From a virus, in the IMG/VR virus record IMGVR_UViG_3300040770_000209, positions 1 to 40,940 of that record: DNA of 40,940 nucleotides. One strand, written 5' to 3'. The notes under the pieces were generated by a model, which saw only the letters and a list, made by a program, of their open reading frames with translations, was not told where the DNA came from and ran no database searches. How positions within the stretch are numbered: the first letter of the stretch is position 1; each line of letters starts with the position of its first letter. Positions 249 through 14,708 of this stretch are shown one piece after another. The translations under genes and the position numbers were made by a program.

Positions 249-620
249 GGGGGTACACGGTTTTGACTGGATATAGTCGTAAATTGTAAGCATGTAGTGC
301 TAAATTGGAAGCACTTAAAACTATCTATTAAAACATTGAATTGACAACGATTATATCGTATCAGAAAATTTCCTTAATGAAAGCAGCGTGTCTGTTTTCG
401 AAGGAGAGGTTGCATTTGCCTAACAATTGTAAATGGTAGTAAACTACCTATGGTGTTGAAACACCAAAAAATACGTTTATAACGTGTTTAAATATATATA
501 GGTTGTTATAGATATGGAACCATAATCATCTTAAAAGGATTGCCAGTTTATGAATTGGATAAACATGTAGAAATCGTTGAAGAATATCTTAGGACAGGGG
601 TTCGAATCCCCTTACCTCCA
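249..620 (+). ncRNA. ssrA: Transfer-messenger RNA (tmRNA) with a noncanonical tag ending in VAFA
   Basis: tmRNA rescues ribosomes stalled on broken mRNA and adds a degradation tag. The 5' end GGGGGTA (249-255) pairs with TACCTCC (613-619), followed by discriminator A620; CCA is not encoded. The T arm has the loop TTCGAAT, and the conserved GTAAGCATG (287-295) and TAAACATGTAGAAA (560-573) stretches bracket the pseudoknot region as in Bacteroides tmRNA. An open tag frame ends at TAA 421-423. The most likely resume codon is GTA at 358, giving a tag of about 21 residues that starts VSENF and ends EGEVAFA. Most bacterial tags end ALAA; an AFA ending is known from mycoplasmas. The gene call is firm, the resume codon is inferred. 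Confidence 0.88.
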
Positions 621-737
621 AATTATCAAAATTAACTCACCTCCACGTGGTGATAATTGGAAACAGATAAAGCTGGCAAAGAAGTTAATAAAAGTGGAGA
701 TATTCGGTTTTTTCTAAATATACACATATTTATATGT

Positions 738-2510: not shown

Positions 2511-2516
2511 TAAATA

Positions 2517-2588
2517 GCGGAATAGAGCAGTAGGTCAGCTCGCAAGGCTCATAACCTTGAGGTCGTAGGTTCGAATCCTTCTTCCGCA
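2517..2588 (+). tRNA. tRNA-Met (anticodon CAT)
   Basis: Anticodon arm CAAGG-CTCATAA-CCTTG gives CAT. Acceptor GCGGAA/TTCCGC, T loop TTCGAAT, discriminator A, CCA not encoded. Elongator versus initiator identity is not settled by eye; the D-arm (AGAGCAGTAGGTCAGCTC) resembles Bacteroidota initiator tRNA. Confidence 0.85.
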
Positions 2589-2615
2589 ACAACGTTGGAG
2601 AACATAAACTCATAT

Positions 2616-2682: not shown

Positions 2683-2689
2683 CTAAATT

Positions 2690-2760
2690 GCGAGGTAGAG
2701 CAGTAGGTAGCTCAGCAGGCTCATAACCTGAAGGTCGGTGGTTCGAGTCCATCCTTCGCT
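2690..2760 (+). tRNA. tRNA-Met (anticodon CAT), second copy
   Basis: Anticodon arm GCAGG-CTCATAA-CCTGA gives CAT; acceptor GCGAGG/CCTTCGC; T loop TTCGAGT; CCA not encoded. Together with 2517 it may provide initiator and elongator Met, or one may be a lysidine-type Ile tRNA. Confidence 0.8.
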
Positions 2761-2838
2761 ACAAAAGAATAGTTACAGCAAGTAAACAAAAAAACTTTAA
2801 ATCTTAATTAAACTAAAAACATGCTATTCTGAAACACA

Positions 2839-2896: not shown

Positions 2897-3575
2897 ATGA
2901 AAACAATTCATTTAGAAATCAGAGATGGTAACGGTGGGTCCGATGCAAAGCTATTAGTAACACAAATGCAAGACATTTACACTAAAACAGCTAAAATTAA
3001 CAATCTAGAATGTTCAATAGTTGACGTTAGAGATGGTTTTGTTCATCTATGTCTTTAGCGGTTCTGACCCAAAAAAAATATTTAATAATGAACAAGGTGT
3101 GCATTCTTGGCATCGAGTCCCACCAACAGAAAAAAAAGGTAGAGTTCATACAAGCTCCATAACAGTTGTTATTTTAGAAGATAATAACTATAAAGAGAAA
3201 AACCTTTCAACTAATGAAGTTAAAATCGAAACAACTAGAGGTCAAGGTCCAGGTGGTCAGCATCGGAATACCACAGATTCAACGGTTGTAATAACTCATG
3301 AATCCACAGGTATCAAAGTTGTTAGGAATGGAAGATGTCAACATAAGAACAAAGCTGAGGCTTTAATTGAATTAACCAAAAGAGTTAATGAATTTTATAG
3401 ATGTGGACATAATTCTATCGACATTGAACATCGAAGAGGTCAGATAGGTAATGGTGAAAGAAGTGATAAACGAAGAACATATCGTGTAAAAGATAATTCA
3501 GTCAGTGACCATATAACAAACAAAACAGCGTCACTAAAAGATATACTTAGAGGTAAAATAGAATTATTATCATAA
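2897..3575 (+). CDS. RF1-like peptide chain release factor lacking domain 1, expressed by +1 frameshift at UAG
   Basis: Class-I release factors read stop codons and hydrolyse peptidyl-tRNA. Frame 0 starts at ATG 2897 (MKTIHLEIRDGNGGSDAK, matching the start of RF1 domain 2) and stops at TAG 3056-3058 after codon 53. The +1 frame from AGC 3057 continues exactly where RF1 would (SGSDPKK...GVHSWHRVPPTE) to TAA 3573-3575. The joined product is 225 residues. PPT (75-77) matches the PxT motif by which RF1 reads UAG/UAA, GGQ (119-121) is the catalytic loop, and GERSDKRRTY with SDHITN is the domain-4 signature. The slip site CTT-TAG-C copies the RF2 frameshift site CTT-TGA-C with UAG in place of UGA. 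Domain 1 is absent, as in PrfH-type factors. No SD-like element precedes the site. Confidence 0.85.
3051..3059 (+). promoter_or_regulatory. Predicted programmed +1 frameshift site (CTT TAG C)
   Basis: Codons TGT-CTT-TAG followed by C. Slippage of tRNA-Leu from CTT to TTT skips one T and reads AGC next. The two frames join without loss or gain of conserved residues. Stop-codon context with a following C is the slow-termination context known from RF2. Confidence 0.75.
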
Positions 3576-3577
3576 TT

Positions 3578-3603
3578 AAATTCCCCAATTGGGGAATTTT
3601 TTA
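3578..3603 (+). terminator. Terminator after the release factor
   Basis: AAATTCCCC (3578-3586), loop AATT, GGGGAATTT (3591-3599), then T-run. Confidence 0.85.
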
Positions 3604-3637
3604 TTTAAAAAAGTTAGAATATTTAAATAAATAAATG

Positions 3638-3645
3638 TATCTTTG
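3638..3645 (+). promoter_or_regulatory. Bacteroidota -7 box (TATCTTTG)
   Basis: TATCTTTG ends six bases before ATG 3651. That ATG opens a five-codon frame (MINML) ending in TAG 3666-3668, immediately before the ATG of the next gene at 3670, so the mRNA may be nearly leaderless and begin with a minicistron. Confidence 0.65.
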
Positions 3646-3669
3646 CTTTATGATAAATATGTTATAGAT

Positions 3670-4038
3670 ATGGGTATGTTTGATTTTTTAATAAATAGTA
3701 ATAAAAAAGCTAAGGTTGGTATAGAATATATCTATCTATCAAATACAGCTTGGGTAGATTGGACTGAAAAACCAGTCAAATATGGGTCAATTATGGTAGA
3801 TGTTATTAAACTACCTAATGATTCTTTTGAGTTTACCGATAAATTGAGTGGAATTAGATATACAACTAATTATGGGTGGTCTTTAGCTGAAAACACACCA
3901 GAGAATATAATGAGTATTAATGATTATTTAGTATCTAATGCTAAATTAGAAATATTAGAAAGAAGTACAAGATTATTACGTAAGAAAATAAATGACTTAA
4001 ATGGTCCTAGTAAAATAAATAATAACGATTTAAAATAG
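3670..4038 (+). CDS. Hypothetical protein ending in UAG, in frame with the next gene
   Basis: A 122-residue protein (starts MGMFDFLINSNKKAK; ATG 3676 is an alternative start). No family recognised; it has an aromatic, beta-rich first half and a Lys/Glu/Leu-rich helical second half. A longer start at TTG 3643 lies inside the promoter and is unlikely. The stop is TAG 4036-4038, and the codons after it (AAA AAT ATG) run in the same frame straight into the kinase gene at 4045. Decoding of this UAG, for instance by the suppressor tRNA at 5128, would make a fused protein of about 295 residues. Confidence 0.55.
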   Translation: MGMFDFLINSNKKAKVGIEYIYLSNTAWVDWTEKPVKYGSIMVDVIKLPNDSFEFTDKLSGIRYTTNYGWSLAENTPENIMSINDYLVSNAKLEILERSTRLLRKKINDLNGPSKINNNDLK

Positions 4039-4044
4039 AAAAAT

Positions 4045-4557
4045 ATGAATAATAATAAATTTCCTAAATTACTCTTGGTTGGAAATATGAGACATGGGAA
4101 AGATTCAATGGCTGAAATACTAGGTGAAAATTTTGGTTTAAAATTTAAATCGTCATCACAAGCTGCTGCTGATATTTTTATATATGATAAATTGAAGGTT
4201 AAGTATGGTTATAAAACATCTGAAGAATGTTTTGAAGACCGAGTAAACCATAGAAGTGAATGGTATGATATGATATGTGAATATAATTTAAATGATAAGG
4301 CTAAATTAGCTAAGGGTATTTTAGAAATCACTGATTGTTATGTTGGAATGAGGGATAGAAATGAAATAAGCGAGTGTATTAATCAAGGGTTATTTGATTT
4401 AATTGTTTGGGTCGATGCTAGTGATAGATTACCGTTAGAGGATAGTTCATCGTTTAATATTGATAAAGCATGTGCTGATGTTATATTAGATAATAATGGT
4501 ACTTATGAACAATTTGTTGAGCGTGTTATTAGGTTTGGTAAAGTTTTAATAAAATAA
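4045..4557 (+). CDS. P-loop nucleoside/nucleotide kinase-like protein
   Basis: A 170-residue protein with a Walker A loop GNMRHGKDS at residues 13-21, the form seen in deoxynucleoside monophosphate kinases and dephospho-CoA kinases. A later GMRDRNE (about 98) and VDASDR (about 123) fit the strand-then-Arg LID region of this superfamily. T4-type phages encode a dNMP kinase that feeds DNA precursor synthesis; this is the most natural role, but substrate is inferred. It starts six bases after the UAG of the preceding gene and in the same frame. Confidence 0.6.
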   Translation: MNNNKFPKLLLVGNMRHGKDSMAEILGENFGLKFKSSSQAAADIFIYDKLKVKYGYKTSEECFEDRVNHRSEWYDMICEYNLNDKAKLAKGILEITDCYVGMRDRNEISECINQGLFDLIVWVDASDRLPLEDSSSFNIDKACADVILDNNGTYEQFVERVIRFGKVLIK

Positions 4558-4559
4558 TT

Positions 4560-4961
4560 ATGGCATATATAAGTAATGTTGAATACGAAAAATATAAAAA
4601 TGGTGCTATGGATGGTACCAAGGAAAACCCAGTTATTGGGAGATTTGATAAAAACTATAAATTAGCTCTATATTTAGGTTACAAATTAAAATGGGATTAT
4701 GATTATAGTTATAATAATTCAATTAATGGTTATTTTCATGTAATAGAACCAATGTTTAAAAAATCATATAATAGGTTTGACTTTGAATACGTGTCTGATG
4801 ATACAATTAATTATACTTGGGATTTCATCATGGTAGAGGTTCTGCCTAAAATTAAAGAAGATGGTCTTTACGATGATACTATGAGTAAATCGTTAAATGA
4901 TTTAGATTTAGTATCTCTATTTAATGCTATTATGGTAGTTATAAATAAAAAATATATTTAA
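4560..4961 (+). CDS. Hypothetical protein
   Basis: A 133-residue protein rich in Tyr, Asp and Asn (starts MAYISNVEYEKYKNGAMDG). It begins two bases after the kinase stop, so it is probably co-transcribed with it. No family or motif recognised; the C-terminal 30 residues (SLNDLDLVSLFNAIMVVINKKYI) form a likely hydrophobic helix. The region after it holds a promoter and tRNAs. Confidence 0.5.
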   Translation: MAYISNVEYEKYKNGAMDGTKENPVIGRFDKNYKLALYLGYKLKWDYDYSYNNSINGYFHVIEPMFKKSYNRFDFEYVSDDTINYTWDFIMVEVLPKIKEDGLYDDTMSKSLNDLDLVSLFNAIMVVINKKYI

Positions 4962-4968
4962 TATTTAC

Positions 4969-4998
4969 TTGTATATTTAAAATATAGTTGTATATTTG
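4969..4998 (+). promoter_or_regulatory. Bacteroidota-type promoter for the suppressor tRNA unit
   Basis: TTG 4969-4971 and TATATTTG 4991-4998. About 130 transcribed bases precede the tRNA; they contain a direct repeat GTTG-n-GCTAATA (about 5042 and 5090) of unknown meaning. Confidence 0.7.
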
Positions 4999-5127
4999 CA
5001 CAAGATAAATGAGGTGGTAACTTTTTACTAGGATAAAAATCGTTGAAGCTAATAAGACAATTAGGTTGGTAAACAATACGTTGGGAGCTAATAGTTGAGA
5101 AAATAAAGCGGTAATAAATAACCAAAT

Positions 5128-5199
5128 GGTCTATTGGTCGAGTGGTAAGATAGTAGTCTCTAAAACTAAAGATGGTGGGTTCGAGCCCCACATAGACTA
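5128..5199 (+). tRNA. Amber suppressor tRNA (anticodon CTA, reads UAG)
   Basis: A full cloverleaf: acceptor GGTCTAT/ATAGACT (one G-U), D stem GTC/GAT with GTGG in the loop, anticodon arm GTAGT-CTCTAAA-ACTAA, T arm GTGGG-TTCGAGC-CCCAC, discriminator A. The loop CTCTAAA has U33 and A37, so the anticodon is CTA (5160-5162), complementary to UAG. Only the G27-A43 pair is off. Which amino acid it carries is not clear; the short D arm resembles Gln tRNAs but the acceptor does not settle it. It lies directly upstream of the hydrolase gene with an in-frame UAG at codon 3. Confidence 0.85.
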
Positions 5200-5212
5200 C
5201 AAAAAATAAGAT

Positions 5213-5284
5213 TCCGTGTTGTGGGTAACGGCAACTTAACCTCGAAAGCAGGGGGTGATTCTGGTTCGAATCCAGAGCACGGTA
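5213..5284 (+). tRNA. tRNA-like element without a readable anticodon
   Basis: Acceptor CCGTGT pairs with GCACGG and the T arm TCTGG-TTCGAAT-CCAGA is perfect, but the middle is unusual: GTTG/CAAC closes a D-like loop with no spacer from the acceptor, and the next stem ACCTC/GGGGT closes GAAAGCAG, with no U33. It sits between the suppressor tRNA and the hydrolase gene and could be a mimic or a processing signal. Confidence 0.45.
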
Positions 5285-5348
5285 CAAATTAACTTGACTT
5301 TTTAATTAAATGTCATATATTTATTATTAACAAACAAAAACAATAAAA

Positions 5349-5696
5349 ATGAAGTAGGTAAACGAAAAATTAAGGGTAGTTACAAGACGAGATTTAAATC
5401 TTGCACATCAAGCAGTTCAATCTGGACATGCAGCTATTGATTTTCAACATGAACACTTAGTTGAAGCAAAACAATGGCAAACACAATCAAATTATTTAGC
5501 ATTTTTAACGGTAAACGATGAACCAGAATTAATTAAATTAATTTCTAAGGCAATACTAATTGGTATAAAGCACACTATTTTTAGAGAACCAGATATAGGT
5601 AATCAAATAACAGCTGTAGCGTTTGAACCAAGTGATTTATCTAGGAAATTAACTAGTTCATGTAGTTTATTAGGGAAGGAGTTATCCAATGCTTAA
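5349..5696 (+). CDS. Peptidyl-tRNA hydrolase 2 family protein with in-frame UAG at codon 3
   Basis: PTH2 enzymes cleave the peptide from peptidyl-tRNA that dropped off ribosomes. The frame starts ATG AAG TAG GTA (5349-5360) and then runs open for 112 codons to TAA 5694-5696. The product after the UAG matches PTH2: LRVVTRRDLNLAHQAVQ, SGHAAIDFQHEH, SNYLAFLTV, FREPDIGNQITAVAFEPSD and RKLTSS. There is no ATG, GTG or TTG in this frame after the UAG and before the conserved core, so synthesis needs UAG decoding. The suppressor tRNA (5128) is 150 bases upstream. A weak promoter (TTGAC at 5292, TATATTTA near 5323) would give a short leader starting at this ATG. The stop overlaps the next gene's ATG by eight bases. 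A sequencing error is the alternative. Confidence 0.82.
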
Positions 5697-5957: not shown

Positions 5958-6026
5958 GGCGAGGTAATCAAATGGTAGGTACAGTTTTGAAAGACTGGTA
6001 TGTTGGTTCGAATCCAGCCCTCGCCT
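5958..6026 (+). tRNA. Atypical tRNA, probably Ser-like (TGA) with an expanded or shrunken anticodon loop
   Basis: Acceptor GGCGAGG/CCTCGCC is perfect and the T arm GTTGG-TTCGAAT-CCAGC is good. The anticodon arm reads CAGT-TTTGAAAG-ACTG (8-base loop) or CAGTT-TTGAAA-GACTG (6-base loop); neither is the standard 7. The tRNA-Ser at 14067 has the same arm without the extra G (ACAGT-TTTGAAA-ACTGT). Anticodon is therefore uncertain. No long variable arm, which argues against true Ser identity. Confidence 0.5.
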
Positions 6027-6029
6027 CTG

Positions 6030-14621: not shown

Positions 14622-14708
14622 ACTATGCTTGACTGAGTGGCCTAAAGTGACTCCCGTTAAAAGGAGTGCCCTGTAAAGGGGCCGTAGGTTCGAATCCTAC
14701 ACATAGTC
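14622..14708 (+). tRNA. Type II tRNA, probably Leu (TAA) with an 8-base anticodon loop
   Basis: Acceptor ACTATG/CATAGT, D arm like Ser/Leu tRNAs (CTGAGTGGCCTAAAG), anticodon arm ACTCC-CGTTAAAA-GGAGT, variable arm CCC/GGG, T arm GTAGG-TTCGAAT-CCTAC. The loop has eight bases; with U33 placed normally the anticodon is TAA (Leu). TTA (an ochre reader) would put G at position 33 and is less likely. A homopolymer error in AAAA would also explain it. Confidence 0.55.

Follow-up and report, generated by a model that had tools for sequence, protein, structure and literature searches.

A candidate amber-codon switch at a phage peptidyl-tRNA hydrolase gene, beside a release factor gene that appears to require recoding

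Introduction

The bacterial gene for release factor 2 (RF2), prfB, regulates itself by a +1 frameshift: a slippery CTT codon is followed by a stop codon and then by C, and the release factor is made only after the shift (PMC12421855). A survey of thousands of bacterial genomes in 2025 detected neither TAG in the prfB motif nor a credible frameshift in prfA (PMC12421855). Stop codons also control expression in phages that have reassigned UAG (genetic code 15), such as crAss-like and Lak phages. In these phages, an amber suppressor tRNA with the anticodon CUA, or tRNA(CUA), is required for gene expression (PMC10879173, PMC9523058). Orphan tRNA(CUA) genes are known from the phages XacN1 (PMC5852040) and RsoM2USA (PMC8504454); the authors of the XacN1 study reported two CUA tRNAs whose targets could not be identified (PMC5852040). 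In synthetic expression switches, a gene is gated by a stop codon and a suppressor tRNA (PMC7969014). Finally, jumbo phages encode peptidyl-tRNA hydrolase 2 (Pth2), for which a role in releasing tRNAs from jammed ribosomes has been proposed (PMC7824862). Here, we describe a 40,940-base virus contig with a GC content of 0.29 ("the window") that resembles all of these systems. It encodes a release factor that is complete only after a +1 shift at CTT-stop-C, a tRNA(CUA), and a pth2 gene with an amber codon (TAG) near its start.

We propose that these genes form two independent recoding switches, and we give this explanation a probability of nearly 0.8. In one switch, the amber codon would gate pth2 and would be read by the phage's own tRNA(CUA). 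In the other, a shortened release factor of the RF1 type ("mini-RF1") would depend on recoding for its synthesis, and feedback at its CTT-UAG-C site would determine its set point. A preliminary description of the window had placed a release factor, a tRNA with anticodon CTA, and a hydrolase within positions 2897-5696. All three genes are present as described, but we interpret their relationship differently.

An amber codon near the start of pth2

The pth2 gene of the window begins ATG AAG TAG GTA AAC GAA AAA TTA. A PTH2 domain of 112 codons follows the TAG, and there is no ATG, GTG, or TTG between the TAG and the domain. The protein belongs to the Pth2 family by its score against PF01981 (30.1 bits, as compared to a cut-off of 23). 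Its AlphaFold model, which was built from an alignment, has a predicted local distance difference test score (pLDDT) of 94.6; the fold from the single sequence was poor. The top 14 matches from the Protein Data Bank, as found by Foldseek, are all Pth2-fold structures. On the + strand of the window, pth2 is the only case of a start codon, zero to four codons, and a TAG preceding an open frame of at least 70 codons.

The same arrangement is found in other phages. A search for close relatives yielded 19 pth2 loci. Down to about 47% identity, these have ATG, zero to three codons, TAG, and then pth2; the exceptions are L045-L047, which come last in the list. tRNA(CUA) is nearby in nearly all of these relatives. 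A profile search of IMG/VR yielded 80 pth2 loci, of which 65 are distinct. The first in-frame stop codon upstream of pth2 is TAG in 60 of these 65 loci and TAA or TGA in just 5, although TAA is by far the commonest stop codon in most of these genomes. In 56 of the 65, the TAG is preceded by ATG or GTG at a distance of zero to four codons, and pth2 follows it. As a background rate, just 1.8% of the ordinary open frames in the same genomes have this layout (27/1530). Nearly all of the distinct loci lack a start codon after the TAG. As a sample that does not depend on the pth2 pattern, we took genomes identified by their release factor gene. Of the 10 with pth2, 7 had the amber codon, as did all eight additional close relatives. 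On this sequence evidence, we consider the amber codon of pth2 to be real and widespread. Some of the genomes with amber pth2 also encode a second, longer Pth2-like protein of 229-329 amino acids (G002:190932, G007:225850, G044:120845, and G045:67433).

Among the 60 loci with TAG, 44 have tRNA(CUA) within 3.5 kb of pth2, and this link recurs in many unrelated phages. Pattern searches for tRNA(CUA) in further contigs gave matches that were mostly not confirmed by ARAGORN. The window's own gene has a tRNA fold with a CUA anticodon. The phage tRNA(CUA)s differ in their base at position 73. The amino acid that is inserted at UAG may differ between phages, and the identity of the inserted residue is therefore probably unimportant; rather, the gate itself would be the point.

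The sequence context of the amber codon was counted across 65 distinct loci, with IMG/VR loci and phage records pooled. A purine follows the UAG of pth2 in 64 of 65 cases but follows gene-ending TAGs in just 37 of 72 (P = 2.6e-11). Amber suppression is favored by a purine after UAG, and the bias at pth2 is as expected for a favored suppression context. The next codon is of the form NTN, mostly encoding isoleucine or valine, in 54 of the 65. The cause of this bias may lie in the protein, in the context, or, for some phages, in re-initiation.

Ten cultured phages have an amber codon in pth2, and tRNA(CUA) is present in all ten of the cultured amber-pth2 phages that we examined. In the mycobacteriophages Gabriel (ATG TAG GTG) and ScoobyDoobyDoo (GTG TAG GTG), an annotated tRNA(CUA) lies just downstream. 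The annotated start was placed downstream in Tenacibaculum phage pT24 (ATG AAA TAG), Cronobacter phage GAP32, and Pectobacterium phage CBB (both ATG GCA CAA TAG), and pth2 is unannotated in Serratia phage BF (ATG ACG CAC TAG). An amber start explains why annotation pipelines missed pth2 or misplaced its start in these four phages. Acinetobacter phage ME3 (ATG ACT TAG) has an annotated tRNA with anticodon CTA 0.5 kb upstream. In Salmonella phage Arash (ATG CTG TAG; locus L321), a gene at 2798-2872 that is annotated as tRNA-Phe has the anticodon CUA according to ARAGORN; this tRNA probably serves to suppress the amber codon of Arash pth2. XacN1 and Stenotrophomonas phage CM1 have a longer coding sequence that opens with ATG AAG TAG and has Pth2 as its C-terminal part; when the two products are aligned, the match continues across the TAG without a break (MK*TIKAMK and MK*TLNKLK). 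We also considered ORF295 of XacN1, which is annotated as Pth, but this Pth2 is of the ordinary kind and lacks an amber codon; the amber codon is in the second, fused Pth2. Amber pth2 offers one candidate target for the CUA tRNAs of XacN1. In phage RaK2, we did not find an ATG-TAG start, and tRNA(CUA) was not among its four pattern matches, which is a weak negative. We did not find the amber start of pth2 noted in the open-access literature, although papers or preprints beyond open access may have it.

A release factor gene with an interrupted reading frame

The release factor gene of the window is split between two frames that meet at CTT TAG C, with the +1 frame open beyond the stop codon as at a prfB-type site (Table 1). 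Once joined, they would encode 225 amino acids, which comprise the second half of the PCRF domain and the RF-1 domain (as described by Pfam). The product is more similar to RF1 (180.9 bits) than to RF2 (97.7 bits) or PrfH (70.3 bits), comparison to solved structures also places it nearest to RF1, and it has the class I, RF1-type motifs GPGGQ and RVPPTE. It is not a full-length RF1: domain 1 is missing, the protein starts at about residue 104-112 of RF1, and the score of 180.9 bits is far below the cut-off of 400.

The same CTT TAG C site is present at L239, L240, L242, L243, L246, L248, L272, and L273. In the Bacteroidota-like relatives, the CTT-TAG-C element shares TATG(T/C)CTTTAGC and lacks a Shine-Dalgarno-like stimulator. 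Relatives with CTT-TGA have GGAGG just upstream, as in prfB.

A profile search identified 80 loci with 66 distinct phage mini-RF1 genes. All but four of the 66 are interrupted. In 23, a +1 shift at CTT-stop is needed; the stop codon is TGA in 12 of these and TAG in 11. The other 39 have one or two in-frame stop codons within a single open frame. These are mostly TGA, with TAG in four genes, two of which also have TGA. Interruptions recur at two sites: near a Trp position of RF1 and about 13-15 codons later. The PxT motif is found in every distinct mini-RF1 gene in which it is readable. In a phylogeny of the C-terminal half, which was built quickly and has few well-supported branches, recoding changed at least 9 times in its broad form and at least 14 times in its exact form. 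Across these changes, the release factor almost always remains interrupted, and this argues that dependence on recoding is the property under selection. At L244, L247, L249, and L257, the release factor has an in-frame TAG within one open frame. We did not find tRNA(CUA) in the flanks that we examined of L244, L249, or L257; if these four phages do carry it, their release factor would be directly suppressor dependent.

For an RF1-type factor with the PxT motif, UAG would be the cognate signal, which fits with the prediction that the window's factor reads its own stop codon. We also considered whether TGA is reassigned in the relatives whose release factor is interrupted by UGA, but coding density near the release factor genes did not rise consistently, and G006 uses TGA as a terminator.

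Alternative explanations

The amber codon of pth2 could be merely one example of wholesale reassignment of UAG (code 15). Phages with tRNA(CUA) often use code 15 (PMC10879173), and pth2 of the 735-kb phage LR756501 contains a further in-frame stop codon. Six long relative contigs were usable for testing this. Contig G001 (193 kb and near-identical to the window), which has a low coding density and looks error-rich, was excluded from the counts. Open reading frames (ORFs) in the standard code cover 74-86% of the six contigs. TAG ends 3-31 ORFs per genome and is a normal but uncommon terminator, and treating TAG as sense increases the coding fraction by about as much as the control of treating TGA as sense. 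In the window itself, UAG terminates 3 of the 46 ORFs of 100 or more amino acids, in agreement with the preliminary description, which stated that UAG is rare as a normal stop codon there. We also aligned TAG-readthrough frames across genomes, with TGA and TAA as controls. The raw alignments of internal stops were swamped by antisense and shadow frames, so we relied on a 5' test and a filtered test. Among the contigs compared, no gene other than pth2 shares a TAG close to its start. Both coding density and these alignments argue against global recoding, which makes code 15 extremely improbable. The preliminary description had said that many in-frame UAGs across structural genes would indicate global reassignment; we saw no such reassignment in the usable contigs, and its suggestion that UAG is a regulatory codon holds up. 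Alternatively, pth2 might be preceded by a leader minigene: the ribosome would terminate at UAG after one to four codons and restart at the next codon (ATT, ATA, ATC, GTG, or ATG), and tRNA(CUA) would be unrelated or would lower expression. One of these five codons follows the TAG in 42 of 65 loci, and the annotators of mycobacteriophages selected the GTG after ATG TAG as the start of pth2. However, the next codon in the remaining 23 loci is not a start codon (GTA, GTT, AGC, ACA, AAC, AGA, ACC, ACG, AAT, AAG, or CTT). Nor would re-initiation account for the strong preference for TAG as the start-proximal stop codon or for the tendency of tRNA(CUA) to travel with pth2. We consider this explanation unlikely.

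As for the release factor, its two frames might be separate or decayed genes, with the second frame translated alone from an internal start such as the TTG at 3021 and the TAG as a relic. There is an open frame of 184 amino acids from that TTG, but in many lineages the amino acid sequence is conserved in both frames on either side of the break, and an interruption of some kind, in a CTT-stop or UGA context, is kept by 62 of the 66 distinct homologues. This makes decay very unlikely. The preliminary description combined the three genes into one UAG circuit with a positive loop, in which suppression at the release factor's UAG lowers the amount of release factor and leads to more suppression and more Pth2. 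It correctly noted that frame 0 past this UAG reads CGG TTC TGA and ends three codons later, so suppression there cannot make the release factor. But low release factor should itself favor frameshifting at UAG, and the feedback would then be negative, not positive. Also, phages of the window's own clade differ in whether UAG or UGA interrupts the release factor, and close relatives with UGA keep both the amber codon of pth2 and tRNA(CUA). Therefore, release factor control and the pth2 gate look like separate switches. A tblastn search of phage records with the release factor gave no mycobacteriophage among the matches listed, though mycobacteriophages have the amber gate. A single circuit with a positive loop thus seems quite unlikely; of the preliminary interpretation, we retain the regulatory UAG and the link between tRNA(CUA) and pth2.

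Several observations weigh against our proposal of two independent switches. At L045 and L046, pth2 lacks the amber codon even though tRNA(CUA) is close by; possibly the gate was lost or the tRNA has another target. Conversely, tRNA(CUA) was not seen in the flanking DNA that we examined for 16 of the 60 amber loci, although IMG/VR contigs may be fragments, so the phage could encode the tRNA elsewhere. The codon after UAG is ATT in 31 of the 65 loci, and in those phages, re-initiation at this near-start codon could occur. Upstream of the window's frameshift site, there is no Shine-Dalgarno-like stimulator; the sequence there is GTTCATCTATGT instead. Lastly, most of the mini-RF1 family is interrupted by UGA. 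An RF1-type factor is not expected to recognize this codon, and simple self-feedback therefore cannot apply throughout the family. In the lineages with UGA, the element may be a sensor of RF2 or of termination as a whole.

Other genes of the island

The order of tmRNA, tRNA-Met, release factor, tRNA(CUA), and pth2 recurs in relatives, and their transfer-messenger RNA (tmRNA) gene is likewise 2-3.5 kb 5' of the release factor gene. In our best explanation, the window carries a portion of a phage island for translation termination and rescue, with tmRNA, initiator-type tRNAs, an RF1-like factor, tRNA(CUA), and Pth2. A scan of 84,980 prokaryote genomes with the phage family profile found one distant match, so the profiled family is essentially viral.

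Table 1. Features of the translation island in the window
Feature	Position	Strand	Notes
tmRNA gene, 5' end of island	249..620	+	ARAGORN; Rfam RF00023, 72.4 bits
Hepatitis delta virus (HDV)-like (theta-type) self-cleaving ribozyme, directly after tmRNA	621..689	+	Rfam RF02682, 46.2 bits, above gathering score
tRNA-Met (CAT)	2516..2590	+	
tRNA-Met (CAT)	2689..2762	+	
Release factor, first frame	2897..3058	+	ATG to in-frame TAG (codon 54); PCRF domain starts here
Predicted +1 frameshift site CTT TAG C	3053..3059	+	CTT 3053-3055, TAG 3056-3058, C 3059
Release factor, second frame	3057..3575	+	AGC from 3057 to TAA 3573-3575; PPT anticodon-like motif, GGQ
Putative amber suppressor tRNA	5128..5200	+	Anticodon CUA; A at position 73
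pth2, peptidyl-tRNA hydrolase	5349..5696	+	TAG is codon 3; PF01981 above cut-off; AlphaFold model
In-frame amber codon, proposed gate of pth2	5355..5357	+	Conserved in 56/65 distinct relatives and in cultured phages

The theta-type ribozyme begins 1 base past the CCA of the tmRNA (618-620), and its predicted self-cleavage would create the mature 3' end of the tmRNA. Theta ribozymes have been described adjoining phage tRNAs; the word tmRNA is absent from the text of the theta ribozyme paper. ARAGORN's prediction of the tmRNA tag peptide seems incorrect: at 335-425, the frame IDNDYIVSENFLNESSVSVFEGEVAFA-stop resembles the long tag that is predicted in relative L006, and it is unusually long. Just past the tmRNA, the ORF at 738-1274 resembles an HNH homing endonuclease (CPYTG...LDRID...GYIIGNIQF) but has no match in Pfam; it may be a mobile gene that inserted beside the tmRNA. 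Two tRNA-like genes, at 5958-6027 and 14622-14708, have anticodon loops of 6 and 8 bases, with anticodons that read "ga" and "ttaa." The gene at 5958-6027 is at the position that tRNA-Cys(GCA) occupies in relatives. Both are possibly frameshifting tRNAs or decaying genes.

Discussion

If tRNA(CUA) is charged and decodes UAG, as we infer, then the pth2 gate would operate as follows. A ribosome would start at ATG and pause at UAG with a peptide of one to five residues. Either RF1 would terminate translation there, or the phage's tRNA(CUA) would let it continue. Pth2 synthesis would then have to await the phage tRNA, and its level would scale with the balance of tRNA(CUA) to RF1. At the CTT-UAG-C site, an RF1-type factor that reads its own UAG would compete with a +1 shift, and the resulting negative feedback would give a set point. 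If termination at UAG became slow, both Pth2 and (via frameshifting) the release factor would be expected to rise under the same stress. As to why Pth2 would be gated, tying it to the supply of phage tRNA and to slow termination would fit its proposed role in rescue.

The amber suppressor tRNAs of many phages with the ordinary code are unexplained, as was stated for XacN1, and pth2 is a specific and conserved candidate for their target. On balance, we favor a more general view: in standard-code phages of Bacteroidota, Proteobacteria, and Actinomycetota, a stop codon and a cognate phage suppressor tRNA would form a dedicated natural switch for one gene, and this switch would be the main reason for carrying tRNA(CUA). 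Beside it, mini-RF1 genes would nearly always require recoding, with self-control by UAG and RF1 in one lineage.

How does this locus differ from the systems that it resembles? As compared to prfB, the product is of the RF1 type, the stop codon is UAG instead of UGA, and there is no Shine-Dalgarno-like stimulator. The site is at codon 54, inside domain 2, and the product lacks domain 1. If our proposal is correct, this gene would be the RF1-side counterpart of the textbook RF2 frameshift, which the 2025 survey did not find in bacteria. In contrast to the code-15 phages, the code is the standard one here, and one amber codon is found near the start of a single gene. The Pth2 of jumbo phages belongs to the same gene family as the window's pth2, but the amber start was not noticed there (PMC7824862). 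XacN1 carries both an orphan tRNA(CUA) and an amber pth2; we report here that its Pth2 fusion gene opens with ATG AAG TAG, a feature that went unnoticed in the XacN1 study (PMC5852040). Finally, the synthetic amber-suppressor expression switches are engineered (PMC7969014), whereas the gate in these phages would be a natural amber switch for a single gene.

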